From Bacillota bacterium (lineage in GTDB: Bacteria > Bacillota > UBA4882 > UBA10575), in NCBI GenBank assembly GCA_012727535.1, contig JAAYGU010000024.1, positions 1 through 41,105 on the forward strand: 41,105 nucleotides of DNA, read 5' to 3'. Positions 5,507-38,412 of the stretch are shown in pieces (the stretch's first letter is position 1; the number at the start of each line of letters is the position of its first letter). The position numbers and the translations under genes are program-made. Under the pieces are notes generated by a model. It was not told the DNA's origin, did no database searches, and was given only the letters and a program-made list of their open reading frames with translations.

Positions 5507-6409
5507 ATGCAATTTTACGCTTCGCTCATCACATTTACGCTAATCTCTGTTATTGCTGTAACGGGTATCTATATTCTGACCGGACTGACCGGAATGTTCT
5601 CTCTTGGTCAGGCCTCTTTTATGGCCATTGGTGCCTATGTTTCCGGAGTCCTAGTGGTTAAAGTGGGCTTGCCCTTCTGGCTTTCAGTTTTAATCGCCGT
5701 AGTAATCAGTGTGGCCGTTGGTTATGTGGTTGGTTTGCCAACAGTTCGCCTGCGCCGTGACTATATATCCCTGGTGACGCTTGGCTTTGGCGAGGCGATT
5801 ATCGCTCTCCTTAACCAAACACAGTCCATCACCGGTGGGGCGCTTGGTTTTTCTGGCATTCCCAAAAAGACAACGCTAACTTTAGCATTGGTTTCCGCGG
5901 TTTTTTGTATTTTTTTAGTCAGCTGTTTTAAAAGATCAAAATATGGTCGGCAGTGTATTGCCGCCAAAAGTGGGGGGCTTCTTCCGACTGCCAAGCGCAT
6001 GAAGGAAGAAAAAAGGGGTAGAGAGATTTGTGAGCATTATATCAATGTGGTTGGCCTGACCCCCTATAAAAATGAACGGCCGGAAAATCTACCTTATGGT
6101 CTCCAGCGCCGGCTGGAAATTGCCAGAGCGCTGACCTGTCAGCCGAAAGTCCTCCTCCTTGATGAACCGGCGGCCGGTCTTAATCCGACCGAGGTGAAAG
6201 AGCTAACGGAACTGATTGGCCGGTTATCTGATGAAATTGGGTTTGCAATTTTGTTGATTGAACATCGTCTGGAACTCGTAATGGGTATTTCCCATCGTAT
6301 TCATGTGTTGAATTTTGGGGAGACCATTGCGGTCGGTACGCCCGAGGAGATTAAGGAGAATCCGGAAGTGATCAAAGCCTACCTGGGAGAGGAGGAACGC
6401 AAATGCTAA
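5507..6409 (+). pseudogene. In-frame chimera: LivM permease front half joined to LivG ATPase back half
   Basis: Residues 1 to about 152 are the N-terminal half of a LivM permease (GIYILTGLTGMFSLGQASFMAIGAY, LRRDYISLVTLGFGEAI, SKYGRQCIAA). From about residue 156 the protein is the second half of a LivG ATPase: an ABC signature region (LPYGLQRRLEIARAL, 195-209), Walker B (KVLLLDEPAAGLNPTE, 214-229), a switch region (LLIEHRLELVM) and the usual C terminus. The remainder of LivM (roughly 140 residues) and the first ~110 residues of LivG, with Walker A, are missing. The join falls near 5960-5975. Such a protein cannot bind ATP normally or complete the permease. Either a deletion of about 0.8 kb or an assembly join explains it. 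The start has AAGGGGGAAAGG upstream. Confidence 0.8.
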
Positions 6410-26640: not shown

Positions 26641-26964
26641 AAATATCAAAATCTAAATGCGTGGAACGGGACAACACCCTTCGTAAGGTGCTGCAGAGAG
26701 CTGTTGGTTGGTGGGAAACAGTGCACTAAGGATGGGGAACTCGCCCGGGAGTAGTCACCTGAAAGCTGCAGTTTTTGTTGGCAATTGCAGTCAGTAAGCG
26801 TGAACGGGTTTCTCGCCGTTATCAAGAGAGGGCATTCATCTTTGAAGTGTTTGTCTTTAAAGATCGATGCTACTGAGGTGGGTATTTGGATACCAAGAAG
26901 AGTGGTACCGCGGAAGGAACGCTTTCGTCTCTTTGCAGTAAGGCAAAGGACGAAAGCTTTTTTT
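26641..26964 (+). ncRNA. T-box riboswitch, probable leucine specifier (CUC; GUC/valine is the alternative)
   Basis: All main parts of a tRNA-sensing T-box leader are present. The distal part of stem I (AGAGAG at 26695-26700, then CTGTT/AACAG with GGTTGGTGGG in the loop) matches the family. An internal loop between CGGG (26667)/CCCG (26744) and CACCCTT (26675)/AAGGATG (26728) holds GAA-CTC-G on its 3' side, giving specifier CUC at 26740-26742. A second reading, GTC at 26754-26756 before ACC, would mean valine. Stem III is GGTAT/ATACC (26881-26894). The T-box bulge AGAGTGGTACCGCG has TGGT at 26903-26906, which fits an A73 discriminator. The terminator stem (26921-26957) is interrupted by one base and followed by seven T. 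Uncharged tRNA should favour antitermination and expression of the gene at 27042. Confidence 0.92.
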
Positions 26965-27041
26965 ATTAAAAAATCCGGCCATGCTCCTAGAGGGAATTAC
27001 GGGTAAACTAAACAACGTCTGTGCTGACAGGAGGAGATCAA

Positions 27042-29564
27042 ATGAAAATTGCTTTTTCCACACTAGGTTGTCCCGATTTTAGTTGGGCTGATATCTATTC
27101 GATGGCCAAGGACCTAGGCTTTGATGGGATCGAAATCCGGGGATTGGGGGAGGAGATCTTTGCCGTCAAGGCGCCGCCATTTACCGACGACCAGTTGCCG
27201 GAGACGCGGCAAAAGCTGTCTCAACTGCGTCTGGAGATTCCCTGCCTTTCTTCCGGTTGTTGTTTGAAATTTGCGGAGAAAGCAGAGGATAATCACCGGG
27301 AGATTATGGAGTATATCACTTTGGCCGCCAAGCTAGGGACGGCTTATGTCCGGGTGTTGGCTGACCAGAGGCCTCATCCGGTCGATGAGGTGGATGACGA
27401 AGTGGTCCTGGCGGCTTTGCGCCGTTTAATTCCGGAGGCGGAAGCCAAGGGTGTGACCCTGCTGGTCGAGACGAACGGGGTTTATGCCGACACCAACCGT
27501 CTGCGTAAGCTGCTTGATGAAGTGGGCAGTGATGCGGTGGCCGCCCTGTGGGATCTGCACCATCCTTACCGGTTTGCCGATGAAAAACCAGAGACGACCG
27601 TTCAGAATCTGGGCGCTTATATTAAATACGTTCACATTAAGGATTCTGTGGTGGAAAATGGGGTGGTTAAGTATAAAATGATGGGCGAAGGCGATCTCCC
27701 ACTCGACGATATGATGTTGGCCTTGCGCTCAATTAATTATGAAGGATATATATCGCTGGAGTGGGTGAAACGCTGGGCCAGCGAGCTAAGTGATGCGGGT
27801 GTGGTCTTCCCCCATTATCTAAATTATATGGAACGTTACTTGGAGAAGCATATCACCCGGGGCCGCCTTTTTGACAATAATGCTAAAACCGGAAAGTATG
27901 TCTGGGAGAAGGATATTCTGATTGATCTGACCTTCCCGCAAGTGCTCGACCGGATGGTAGAGGAGTTCCCCAACCAGTATGCTTTTCGTTATACTACGTT
28001 GGATTATACCCGTACCTATGCTGAGTTCCGGGAGGATGTCGATACTTTTGCCCGTTCGTTAATTGCCTTGGGGGTGAAACCCGGAGACCATGTGGCGATC
28101 TGGGCGACGAATCTTCCCCAGTGGTTCATCACTTTCTGGGCGACCACGAAGATTGGCGCGGTGCTGGTTACAGTGAATACCGCCTACAAAATTCACGAAG
28201 TTGAATATCTGCTCCGTCAGTCGGACACCCACACCCTGGTCATGTGCGACGGGTATAAGGACTCCAACTATGTGGCGATCATGAAGGAACTCTGTCCGGA
28301 ACTGGAAACCACGGAGGCCGGTCGGCCGTTGCGTGCGAAGCGTCTTCCTTTTTTGCGCAATATCATTACCATCGAGTCTAAGCAGAAGGGTTGTCTAACC
28401 TGGGATGAAGCTTGGGCTTTGGCGGACCGGGTTCCTGTAGAGGAGGTTTACCGGCGGGCGGCGGCCATTAGTAAACATGATGTCTGTAATATGCAGTACA
28501 CCTCGGGGACGACTGGTTTTCCCAAGGGAGTGATGCTTACCCATTACAATGTGGTCAATAATGGAAAATGCATCGGCGACTGTATGGATCTGTCCACTGC
28601 TGATCGGATGTTGATCCAGGTGCCCATGTTTCATTGTTTCGGGATGGTATTGGCAATGACCGCGGCGATGACACACGGTGCCACAATGACTCCGATCCCA
28701 TATTTTTCTCCCAAGACGGCGTTGGCCGCCATCGACCAGGAGAAGATCACCTGTTGTCACGGAGTGCCCACCATGTTTATTGCCCTGTTGGGGCATGAGG
28801 ATTTCCCCAAGACTGACTTTTCGCAGATGCGCACTGGCATCATGGCGGGGAGGCCCTGTCCGGTTAAGGTGATGCAGGATGTGGGGGAGAAGATGAACAT
28901 GAAGGAGATTACCATCGTCTATGGACAGACCGAGGCTTCACCGGGCTGTACCCAGAGCCGGGTGGATGATCCACTCGAATTGCGGGTGAAGACGGTGGGG
29001 CGTGCCCTGCCCGGAGTGGAATGTAAGATTGTCGACCCGCGGACCGGTGAAGAACTTCCCGACGGGGTTGATGGGGAGCTGGTCGTGCGTGGATACAACG
29101 TGATGAAAGGTTACTATAAAATGCCGGAGGCTACCAAAGCCGTGATTGATGAGAACGGCTGGCTGCATACGGGGGACTTGGCGCGGCGGGACGCCAACGG
29201 ATATTACCAGATTACCGGGCGCATCAAAGATATGATTATCCGCGGCGGGGAGAATATTTACCCCAAAGAGATCGAGGACTTTATCTATACTCATCCCAAG
29301 GTTAGGGATGTACAAGTGATTGGTGTGCCTGACGAGCAGTACGGCGAGGAGATTATGGCTTGTGTGATTTTAAAAGAGGGCGAGACGATGAGTGAAGAGG
29401 AATTGAAGGAGTATGTGCGTACGCATATGGCGAAGCATAAAACCCCGCGTTATGTTGAATTTGTTAAAGAATTTCCGATGAATGCCGCCGGGAAGATTCT
29501 TAAGTACAAGATGCGTGAGCAGGCGGCGGAAAAGCTTGGCCTGCAAAAGGAGAATCCGGCCTAA
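27042..29564 (+). CDS. Fusion of a xylose-isomerase-like TIM barrel and an AMP-forming acyl-CoA ligase
   Basis: This is an 840-residue bifunctional protein. Residues 1 to about 275 are a sugar-isomerase-type TIM barrel whose metal ligands can be placed at Glu143 (LVETNG), Asp171 (WDLHH), His198 (VHIKD) and Glu240 (SLEW). From about 285 on it is an acyl-adenylate/CoA ligase: P-loop YTSGTTGFPKGVML (486-499), YGQTEASP, GWLHTGDLARRDANGYYQITGRIKDMIIRGGENIYPKEIE and the C-terminal catalytic lysine region MNAAGKILKYKM. The ligase half resembles medium- or short-chain fatty acyl-CoA synthetases. ATG 27042 follows AGGAGGAG by five bases. It lies behind a T-box leader, so expression should respond to an amino acid, which is odd for this enzyme class. 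A role in activating branched-chain acids is an inference. Confidence 0.88.
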   Translation: MKIAFSTLGCPDFSWADIYSMAKDLGFDGIEIRGLGEEIFAVKAPPFTDDQLPETRQKLSQLRLEIPCLSSGCCLKFAEKAEDNHREIMEYITLAAKLGTAYVRVLADQRPHPVDEVDDEVVLAALRRLIPEAEAKGVTLLVETNGVYADTNRLRKLLDEVGSDAVAALWDLHHPYRFADEKPETTVQNLGAYIKYVHIKDSVVENGVVKYKMMGEGDLPLDDMMLALRSINYEGYISLEWVKRWASELSDAGVVFPHYLNYMERYLEKHITRGRLFDNNAKTGKYVWEKDILIDLTFPQVLDRMVEEFPNQYAFRYTTLDYTRTYAEFREDVDTFARSLIALGVKPGDHVAIWATNLPQWFITFWATTKIGAVLVTVNTAYKIHEVEYLLRQSDTHTLVMCDGYKDSNYVAIMKELCPELETTEAGRPLRAKRLPFLRNIITIESKQKGCLTWDEAWALADRVPVEEVYRRAAAISKHDVCNMQYTSGTTGFPKGVMLTHYNVVNNGKCIGDCMDLSTADRMLIQVPMFHCFGMVLAMTAAMTHGATMTPIPYFSPKTALAAIDQEKITCCHGVPTMFIALLGHEDFPKTDFSQMRTGIMAGRPCPVKVMQDVGEKMNMKEITIVYGQTEASPGCTQSRVDDPLELRVKTVGRALPGVECKIVDPRTGEELPDGVDGELVVRGYNVMKGYYKMPEATKAVIDENGWLHTGDLARRDANGYYQITGRIKDMIIRGGENIYPKEIEDFIYTHPKVRDVQVIGVPDEQYGEEIMACVILKEGETMSEEELKEYVRTHMAKHKTPRYVEFVKEFPMNAAGKILKYKMREQAAEKLGLQKENPA

Positions 29565-35829: not shown

Positions 35830-37122
35830 ATGAAAAAAGCGGGAAAGCTACTTGGTGTAATCTTAGTCTTCGTTTTACTTGTTTCATTGGCCATAAACGT
35901 TTCTGCAGCCAGAAAAGTGCAGCTAAGGTTCTCTTGGTGGGGAGGGGATACTAGACACCAGGCGACTCTAGAGGCGATCTAGCTCTACGAGAAGAAAAAT
36001 CCCAATGTTAAGATTGAAGCGGAGTATGGTGGATTCGATGCTTACTACCAGAAACTGGTGACCCAGTTGGCCGGTGGTACAGCAGCCGATATTATTCAGA
36101 TCGACTATAAATGGGTTAGCGATCTTGCCGCGCAGGGAGAACTCTTCGTTAATATGAATGATTTAAAAGACAGAATTGACATGAGCGGTTTTGATCTGAA
36201 CTTTGCTCATAGTTACGGCGCGGTCGGAAATTATCTATTAGGGCTGCCTACCGGTTTGAATGCCTTGACACTAGCGGCAAACATGGATTTCTTAAAAGAA
36301 ATGGGCATTAAACTGGACAATGACTGGGATTGGGATAAAATCCTCGAAGCAGGTGTCAAGGTTCAGCAAAAAGATAAGAACAAACACCTACTCTATTTAA
36401 CAACGAATCACTTCAACTACTTACTCAAAACCTACATGAAGCAAAAGACCGGTAACAACTTCATTAAAGATGATTTTACTTTCGGCTTCAAAAAAGAAGA
36501 ACTTGTTGATGCCTTTGCCTATATCCGGAAAATGGTCGATTTAGGTGTTGTTTCTCCCTTTGAAGAAAGTGTCCTCTTCGACCATGTCGGAAGCGAACAG
36601 AATAATAACTGGCTTGCCGGTAAATACGGCTTCCTAACCCAATGGGCGTCTGCAGTTCCTCCGGTAATGGCTTACAGCAGCTTCCCCATGGATGTAACCC
36701 GCTACCCGGTGCCGAAAGATGCAGTTGACCCTGGTATTCTTACCACTCCGTCTCAGTTCCTCTCCATCAACAAAAGGTCTAAAAACATTGATGAAGCCAT
36801 TAAATTTGTCGACTGGTTCTTCAATGACGAGGAAGCAATCTTAATCTTGAAAGATTGCCGTGGGGTTCCGCCGACGGTTAAAGCTCGGGAACTGTTAGCT
36901 GAGAAACAGCTGATTAACCCGGTTGTAGCCAAAGGCGTGGATGTATCCCTACCGTTCAGTGGCGGACCCGAGAATGCTCTAAGTCTGAATAAAGAAGTTG
37001 AAACTATAATGCATGATTATATTCAGCAAGTTGGTTTCAGACGGATGTCTCCTGAACAGGCAGCCGATAACTTAATGCGCGACTTACAGCAAAAATTAGA
37101 CGAACTGAAAGCATGGAGATAA
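35830..37122 (+). pseudogene. Sugar ABC transporter substrate-binding protein interrupted by an in-frame TAG
   Basis: A normal start (AAAGGAGG, ATG 35830) and signal peptide (MKKAGKLLGVILVFVLLVSLAINVSA) lead into a family-1 sugar-binding protein, KVQLRFSWWGGDTRHQATLEAI. Codon 51 is TAG (35980-35982). The frame then continues with LYEKKNPNVKIEAEYGGFDAYYQKLVTQLAGGTAADIIQID and stays intact for 379 further codons to 37122. Relatives have Lys, Glu or Asn there, so a single substitution such as AAG to TAG would explain it. The rest is so well kept that the change is either recent, a base-calling error, or read through. The receptor would otherwise be missing from this importer. The internal GTG at 36058 has no ribosome site. 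Confidence 0.8.
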
Positions 37123-37166
37123 ACGGTCTAACAAATCTCCAACGGTTCTAGTATAACCTTAGTTAT

Positions 37167-37212
37167 GAAGGCACTTCCCTGGCACTAGGCCTTCGAAGTG
37201 CCTTCCTTTTCA
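37167..37212 (+). terminator. Terminator or attenuator after the binding-protein gene
   Basis: GAAGGCACTTC (37167-37177) and GAAGTGCCTTC (37195-37205) are exact complements around 17 bases, followed by CTTTTC. It may reduce read-through into the permease genes. A smaller hairpin (GGAGAT/ATCTCC, 37115-37140) spans the stop codon. Confidence 0.6.
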
Positions 37213-37391
37213 AACAGTGGGTAGATTTGATAATGGTCGTTCCAGAAGATGCACTTTACAACAAGAAGTACACACCAAGAAGCAACCGTTCAAAGATCCG
37301 TCCTTCTCAATGCCCACTGTTTGTTTTATTACTAAATACTTTCTCGAGAGGTTCTCGAGGGGTATTTAGTTATGAAGGACTCCTTTGAACG
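37211..37391 (+). other. Densely structured non-coding region between binding-protein and permease genes
   Basis: Three sets of complements overlap. CAAACAGTGGG (37211-37221) pairs with 37313-37323 and is followed by TTTTATT. CGTTCAAAG and GTCCTTC (37287-37306) pair with GAAGGAC and CTTTGAACG (37374-37391). A compact hairpin at 37331-37370 has outer arms ACTAAATAC/GTATTTAGT and an inner self-complementary CTCGAG pair. The first two helices cross, so they are mutually exclusive or form a pseudoknot. The stretch 37123-37488 contains no gene. Confidence 0.55.
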
Positions 37392-37488
37392 TTTGCCCAA
37401 AGATAACAGACGACTCACAAAAGAGTTTTCTCTAAATAAAAGTTAGCAGTGATTTAAAAAAGATTCCACTCAGAAAAGGATGAGTAAC

Positions 37489-38412
37489 ATGAAGGTTACG
37501 AAAATAATGAAGAATCCGAATTTCAGATCTAAATTTAAAAGTGATTATGTAGGGTTGCTATATATTGCTCCCTGGATCATTGGGTTCTTGGTATTCCAGT
37601 TATATCCGTTTATAACATCTTTCATCTATTCATTTACTGATCTGTCTTTACTAAAGACACCGAATTTCGTTGGACTGAGCAACTATAAAAATCTATTGAC
37701 CAACGATAAACTATTTTATCAATCACTAAAAATTACCTTGATCTATGTATTGGTCGCGGTTCCGGGTAAACTCCTCTTTGCCCTGTTTATAGCCATGATT
37801 CTGAATATGAAACTAAAACTAATCAATTTTTACCGAACCATCTATTATATGCCCTCAATTCTTGGTGGAAGTGTAGCATTGGCTGTACTCTGGAGATTCT
37901 TATTCGCCCGTAACGGGCTGGTTAATATCGTTTTATCTAAATTGTCTATACCGGCCATTGATTGGCTCGGGAACCCCGATATTGCCCTTTATACAATAAG
38001 CTTCCTTACGATTTGGCAGTTTGGCTCATCGATGGTCCTTTTCTTGGCCGGCTTAAAACAAATACCAGCCGAGCTTTATGAGGCGGCCAAAGTAGACGGA
38101 GCGGGTAGAATAAGGTCATTCTTTAACATCACTTTACCAATGCTGACCCCGATTATCTTTTTCAATCTGATTATGCAGACGATTAACGCGTTCCAACAAT
38201 TCACTTCAGCATTTGTTATTACAAAGGGCGGGCCTTTGAAATCAACCTACCTGTATGGACTCATGCTGTACGATTACGGTTTCAAATACTTTAGAATGGG
38301 GTATGCTTCTGCTCAATCCTGGATCTTATTCGCGATTATTATGTGCTTAACACTCTTAGTATTTAAGTCATCACCTTACTGGACTTACTACGAAGATGGC
38401 GGTGATTTCTGA
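37489..38412 (+). CDS. Sugar ABC transporter permease, CUT1 family (MalF/UgpA type)
   Basis: This 307-residue membrane subunit has six hydrophobic helices and a canonical EAA loop (PAELYEAAKVDGAGRIRSFFNITLPMLTPI). The N-terminal GLLYIAPWIIGFLVFQLYPFITSFIYSFTD is typical. ATG 37489 is preferred because AAAAGGA ends nine bases before it; the earlier ATG at 37480 overlaps that ribosome site. It is separated from the binding-protein gene by a 366-base structured gap and overlaps the next permease gene by one base. No ATPase gene is present, so the transporter probably borrows a shared MsmK-type ATPase. Confidence 0.92.
   Translation: MKVTKIMKNPNFRSKFKSDYVGLLYIAPWIIGFLVFQLYPFITSFIYSFTDLSLLKTPNFVGLSNYKNLLTNDKLFYQSLKITLIYVLVAVPGKLLFALFIAMILNMKLKLINFYRTIYYMPSILGGSVALAVLWRFLFARNGLVNIVLSKLSIPAIDWLGNPDIALYTISFLTIWQFGSSMVLFLAGLKQIPAELYEAAKVDGAGRIRSFFNITLPMLTPIIFFNLIMQTINAFQQFTSAFVITKGGPLKSTYLYGLMLYDYGFKYFRMGYASAQSWILFAIIMCLTLLVFKSSPYWTYYEDGGDF

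Follow-up and report, generated by a model that had tools for sequence, protein, structure and literature searches.

Probable ratio-setting hairpins, with an unusual crossing helix, between the receptor and permease genes of a Bacillota ABC importer operon

Does the long gap between the receptor and first permease genes of an ABC importer operon encode a switching RNA, or is it a gap of a known kind? The window analysed was a 41,105-nt stretch of DNA from a Bacillota bacterium of the UBA10575 lineage (assembly GCA_012727535.1, contig JAAYGU010000024.1, forward strand). A sequence-only reading had drawn long inverted repeats at 37211-37391 and proposed that they form mutually exclusive helices, one of them terminator-like, which might attenuate transcription, sense a ligand or set the receptor-to-permease ratio. 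Pfam assigned SBP_bac_1, two BPD_transp_1 permeases and a GFO_IDH_MocA oxidoreductase to the operon, and a divergent response regulator and histidine kinase were found upstream of it. The solute-binding protein (SBP) gene comes first and is on the same strand as the permease genes. The gap hairpins sit in the 357 nt between the last base of the SBP gene (37122) and the permease frame, open from 37480. The features of the region are as follows.

36058 to 37122, + strand: open 3' part of the SBP gene (SBP_bac_1; open reading frame, Pfam PF01547, E 6.7e-18)
37159 to 37171, + strand: copy 1 of the 13-nt direct repeat TTAGTTATGAAGG
37167 to 37205, + strand: H1, a compact hairpin (inverted repeat, 11/11 outer pairs) followed by CTTTTC
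37211 to 37221, + strand: 5' arm of helix A (inverted repeat), similar to the 5' arm of the UBA5486 hairpin
37282 to 37306, + strand: 5' arm of helix B (inverted repeat), within the loop of A
37313 to 37331, + strand: 3' arm of helix A (37313-37323, inverted repeat) with the U-rich tract TTTTATTA
37325 to 37376, + strand: helix C, a hairpin with a double CTCGAG core (inverted repeat, fold)
37366 to 37378, + strand: copy 2 of the direct repeat TTAGTTATGAAGG
37374 to 37396, + strand: 3' arm of helix B (inverted repeat), its first 3 bases overlapping the outer end of C
37480 to 38412, + strand: first permease gene (BPD_transp_1; open reading frame, Pfam PF00528)

The likely true start of the SBP gene is ATG 35830, well placed behind AAGGAGG. 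An in-frame TAG (35980-35982) separates this start from the long open stretch that runs from 36058, and reflects either disruption of the gene or an error in the assembly. The permease may truly start at ATG 37489, which is better spaced behind AAGGA.

Helix A was recovered exactly as drawn before (37211-37221/37313-37323, 11/11 pairs), with 91 nt separating its arms and the U-rich tract (37320-37331) adjoining. The crossing helix B, placed earlier at 37287-37306/37374-37391, proved to be real and longer, comprising 37282-37295/37383-37396 (13/14 pairs) and 37300-37306/37374-37380 (7/7 pairs), and was the top-scoring helix of the gap. Likewise, the compact hairpin with the CTCGAG core, given as 37331-37370, extends to 37325-37376. 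H1 lies just upstream, outside the span of the sequence-only reading. The stretch 37160-37213 (H1), the stretch around helix A and the stretch 37325-37378 (C) fold at -23.6, -31.3 and -23.1 kcal/mol, respectively. The two copies of TTAGTTATGAAGG are exact and both run into a helix arm beginning GAAGG; an exact repeat of 13 nt was found in 0/500 shuffles of the gap.

To gauge chance, the 357-nt gap was dinucleotide-shuffled 400 times and the helix scores were compared. The top score was 39 (at least 34 in 23/400 shuffles, shuffle maximum 47), the second 38 (at least 34 in 1/400, shuffle maximum 37), the third 30 (reached in 1/400) and the fourth 28 (shuffles never above 26). Helix B alone is within the shuffle range, and the four helices as a set are beyond chance. 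Folding of 37205-37400 gave -55.1 kcal/mol (z -3.49, 0/200 shuffles equally stable), and this minimum-energy fold includes A and C but omits B. Enforcing B in the pseudoknot-free model gave -51.7 kcal/mol, a cost of 3.4.

Homologous gaps were collected by an SBP search of 101 genomes, which gave matches in 27. Thirty SBP loci were fetched (L011-L040), of which six had no permease found downstream and one had a 23-nt gap. The remaining 23 gaps were measured; they include the window and two gaps of identical sequence (L027 and L028), many belong to distant family members, and their permease starts were estimated. With gaps and shuffles scanned equally (60 shuffles per gap), z was about -2 or lower in 20/23, the exceptions being L013, L032 and L038, and no shuffle was as stable as the gap in 17/23. 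A single hairpin with z <= -2 was present in 18/23 gaps, against 1/23 and 0/23 equal-length coding controls taken upstream and downstream, in a comparison with 25 shuffles, for which the scan was coarser than for the real sequences; this lowers z for the coding controls as well as for the gaps. The sole coding control at this level was the window's own SBP gene. Energy alone is weak evidence, since hairpins of -15 kcal/mol or better occurred in 10/23 and 11/23 coding controls as well as in 21/23 gaps. A phylum-wide search of 398 genomes, of which 8 matched at 1e-50, added six further loci; judged by eye without shuffles, the gap of each folds into a long hairpin. In homologous gaps, a hairpin following the SBP gene is the norm.

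Related gaps can also be compared in pairs. The importer operon on contig C106 of the same genome and one in a genome of the same genus share an identical 10-bp gap hairpin with differing flanks (L039 and L015, the latter from G001). Two congeners of another genus have 30 nt (L062) and 82 nt (L065) between the arms of seemingly the same outer stem. In L065 (reverse complement), in the gap after the SBP stop at 2562, the A- and U-rich flanks of the hairpin pair further.

The closest homologous operon was that of UBA5486 (L012 and L041; SBP 60% and permease 77% identical), and in a class search of 29 genomes an SBP above 41% identity was found solely there. The UBA5486 gap is 157 nt long and has one strong 15-bp hairpin, whose outer-stem arms are 30 nt apart against 91 in A. 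Its stem, AAACAGCGGG/CCCGCTGTTT, was compared with that of A, AAACAGTGGG/CCCACTGTTT; the outer ten pairs differ by one two-sided C-G to T-A change. Further along, both gaps contain TGTTTTATTA, AAGATAA and AAAGAGTT(T/A)TC, in that order. MAFFT alignment of the two gaps was uninformative due to the length difference. A chain score with free gaps was 27.0, a value reached in 2/120 shuffles. A and the UBA5486 hairpin likely share an origin, judged from this one relative at about p = 0.02. Sequence that the UBA5486 gap lacks lies before A, in the loop of A and after its U-rich tract; one arm of B falls in the extra stretch of the loop and the other in the extra stretch after the tract. The difference in length may reflect growth of the window gap.

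Terminators were searched for by a pattern scan with a limit of 8 nt between perfect arms, which H1 and A both exceed. The scan called neither hairpin, and the tails, CTTTTC after H1 (just four consecutive U) and TTTTATTA after A, are short. The hairpin of the UBA5486 gap was not called by the scan either. On the + strand it matched once, inside C (its inner part, 37340-37362, with the tail TATTTAGTTA); the 2 matches obtained against 1.8 expected from shuffles are no excess. Because the scan calls neither H1 nor A, we infer termination in the window from the homologues and the literature.

Three known systems bear on this point. The malE-malF intergenic REP hairpins of E. coli protect the upstream message, and lie, as the window hairpins do, between receptor and permease genes. 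Unlike the window gap, which has no second copy in its own genome at E <= 0.001 (just short weak matches at E <= 10), REP elements belong to a repeated family. For a Clostridium, PMC9045158 describes stem-loops after SBP genes that were found by experiment to be partial internal terminators setting SBP excess. According to the same text, SBP-gene stem-loops of R. cellulolyticum terminate 20.7-96.1% of transcripts, 87.3% of long gaps after 5' SBP genes have a stem-loop, and folding energy is linked to the stability of the SBP message. The stem-loop threshold given there is -10 kcal/mol, which H1, A and C all surpass, and its Type II, with fewer than 5 U, allows for the shortness of the H1 tail. 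The window gap is alike in having the SBP gene before the permeases, a long hairpin, a few-U tail and frequent hairpins in homologous gaps. It differs in having two tandem terminator-like stems, one with 91 nt between its arms, in its extra hairpin and crossing helix, and in that termination here is a prediction. Stabilizing intergenic stem-loops are described in PMC8219983 and PMC4423207. Those of PMC4423207 are alike in being intergenic and at the 3' end of a gene whose product is to be in excess. A literature search joining attenuator or pseudoknot with SBP terms gave no paper whose available text contained 'solute-binding protein'.

Most probably, the gap sets the SBP-to-permease ratio of an ABC importer operon whose SBP gene comes first, and does so without ligand input. 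H1 is likely the main partial terminator or 3'-end-protecting hairpin. H1, and probably also A with its U-rich tract, would act as inefficient intrinsic terminators, and H1, probably with A, would cap and protect the 3' end of the SBP message. Partial termination and protection together would yield SBP in excess of permease. A would be the counterpart of the single strong UBA5486 hairpin, with its arms further apart. B and C, located in or formed by sequence absent from UBA5486, would be products of local rearrangement; they may add stability, would not switch, and are presumably dispensable. On this explanation, the gap is an ordinary ratio-setting gap of an already known kind, with unusual overgrowth. 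The earlier proposal thus keeps its terminator-type hairpin between receptor and permease genes, common in homologous gaps and seen by experiment to act so in PMC9045158, and with it a possible role in setting the ratio; its switch part finds no support. The ratio-setting explanation suggests that an SBP-gene hairpin sets importer stoichiometry in this Firmicutes lineage too. Between the window and UBA5486, and between L065 and L062, the distance between arms has seemingly changed about threefold with the outer stem kept. Should A, with its arms 91 nt apart, still function as a terminator, it would put the loop tolerance of intrinsic terminators to the test.

Quite possible, though short of an even chance, is that much of the gap is rearrangement debris, perhaps of a decaying operon, in which inverted and direct duplications swelled the gap and 37223-37400 outside the 3' arm of A is irrelevant. 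The exact 13-nt repeat points to this, as do the arms of B lying one each in the two stretches that are extra relative to UBA5486, and a gap that is the longest of the 23 measured. The in-frame TAG in the SBP gene is a further sign that the operon may be decaying, but it may be an assembly error, the permease and oxidoreductase frames are open, and H1 and A still look intact. The debris reading is compatible with the ratio-setting explanation, which keeps H1 and A, and the likelihoods of the two overlap.

A functional pseudoknotted RNA is unlikely. Here A and B would form together, with C in the connecting loop, and act post-transcriptionally, for example as an exonuclease roadblock or a protein-binding site. 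The arms run 5'A-5'B-3'A-3'B, share no bases and are joined by connectors of 60, 6 and 50 nt (H-type), and B scores highest of the helices. However, C overlaps the 3' arm of B by 3 bases, and no homologue was found: the gap DNA had no match in 100 other genomes at E <= 0.001 or in phage and plasmid collections at 1e-5. Crossing is also not unheard of, as two others of the 23 gaps, L035 and L040, have weaker crossing helices. We consider it rather improbable that, once transcribed, the 11-bp A crossed by the 20-pair B, with C in the loop, forms a cap or gate on the SBP message; if true, such an element setting the SBP-permease ratio would go beyond a plain internal terminator in complexity.

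In a terminator-antiterminator pair the two helices compete for bases, and the antiterminator forms first. The pair A/B is arranged otherwise. A and B have no base in common, so they need not exclude each other and can coexist as a pseudoknot; the 3' arm of B (37374-37396) starts 43 bases past the end of the U-rich tract of A, and B cannot pre-empt A because that arm is made after polymerase has passed the tract. As for a ligand, the gap contained neither a known RNA family nor a conserved aptamer: an Rfam search gave no family at threshold (E up to 5 gave just a microRNA family, E = 4), and a single-sequence covariance model of B + C, run on 61 genomes under strict filters, matched the window alone, with no relative in the 60 others. 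The same model run on 21 sources again found the window alone, a second, minus-strand match being the palindrome itself. A transcription attenuator or riboswitch, in which A is the terminator and B an alternative helix preventing A on ligand, is therefore very unlikely, even with a U-rich tract directly after A and a crossing pair (both scores at least 30) as strong as this in just 3/600 shuffles, given also that the B-enforced fold is the less stable one and that the UBA5486 gap is without crossing helices.

Several other candidates were examined and rejected. A mobile element or repeat family was discarded on the absence of copies in the own genome, the 100 other genomes and the phage and plasmid collections; an 18-nt exact pattern from the A region was absent from viral contigs. 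TTAGTTATGAAGG with three fixed bases, searched genome-wide as a motif (<=3 mismatches), gave 28 matches against 26 for the reversed control. The small frame at 37233-37388 (51 aa) had no Pfam match at E <= 0.001. The segment 37284-37303 had recurring short matches in other genomes. At two of the loci inspected (L044 and L045) the flanks read histidine-kinase-like, with RIFERF, which we take to be a histidine-kinase-like motif, and at two others (L046 and L047) the matches resemble the reverse complement; on account of the histidine-kinase-like flanks the segment was taken as a chance word.

Two observations were made elsewhere in the window. By eye, ORF 5507-6409 joins an N-terminal LivM-type permease part to a C-terminal LivG-type ATPase part, and is either a deletion fusion or a misassembly. 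T-boxes usually precede amino-acid-related genes; a T-box leader (RF00230, 111 bits) is located at 26653-26935, upstream of ORF 27021-29564, which by eye joins a sugar-isomerase-like part to an AMP-ligase-like part.
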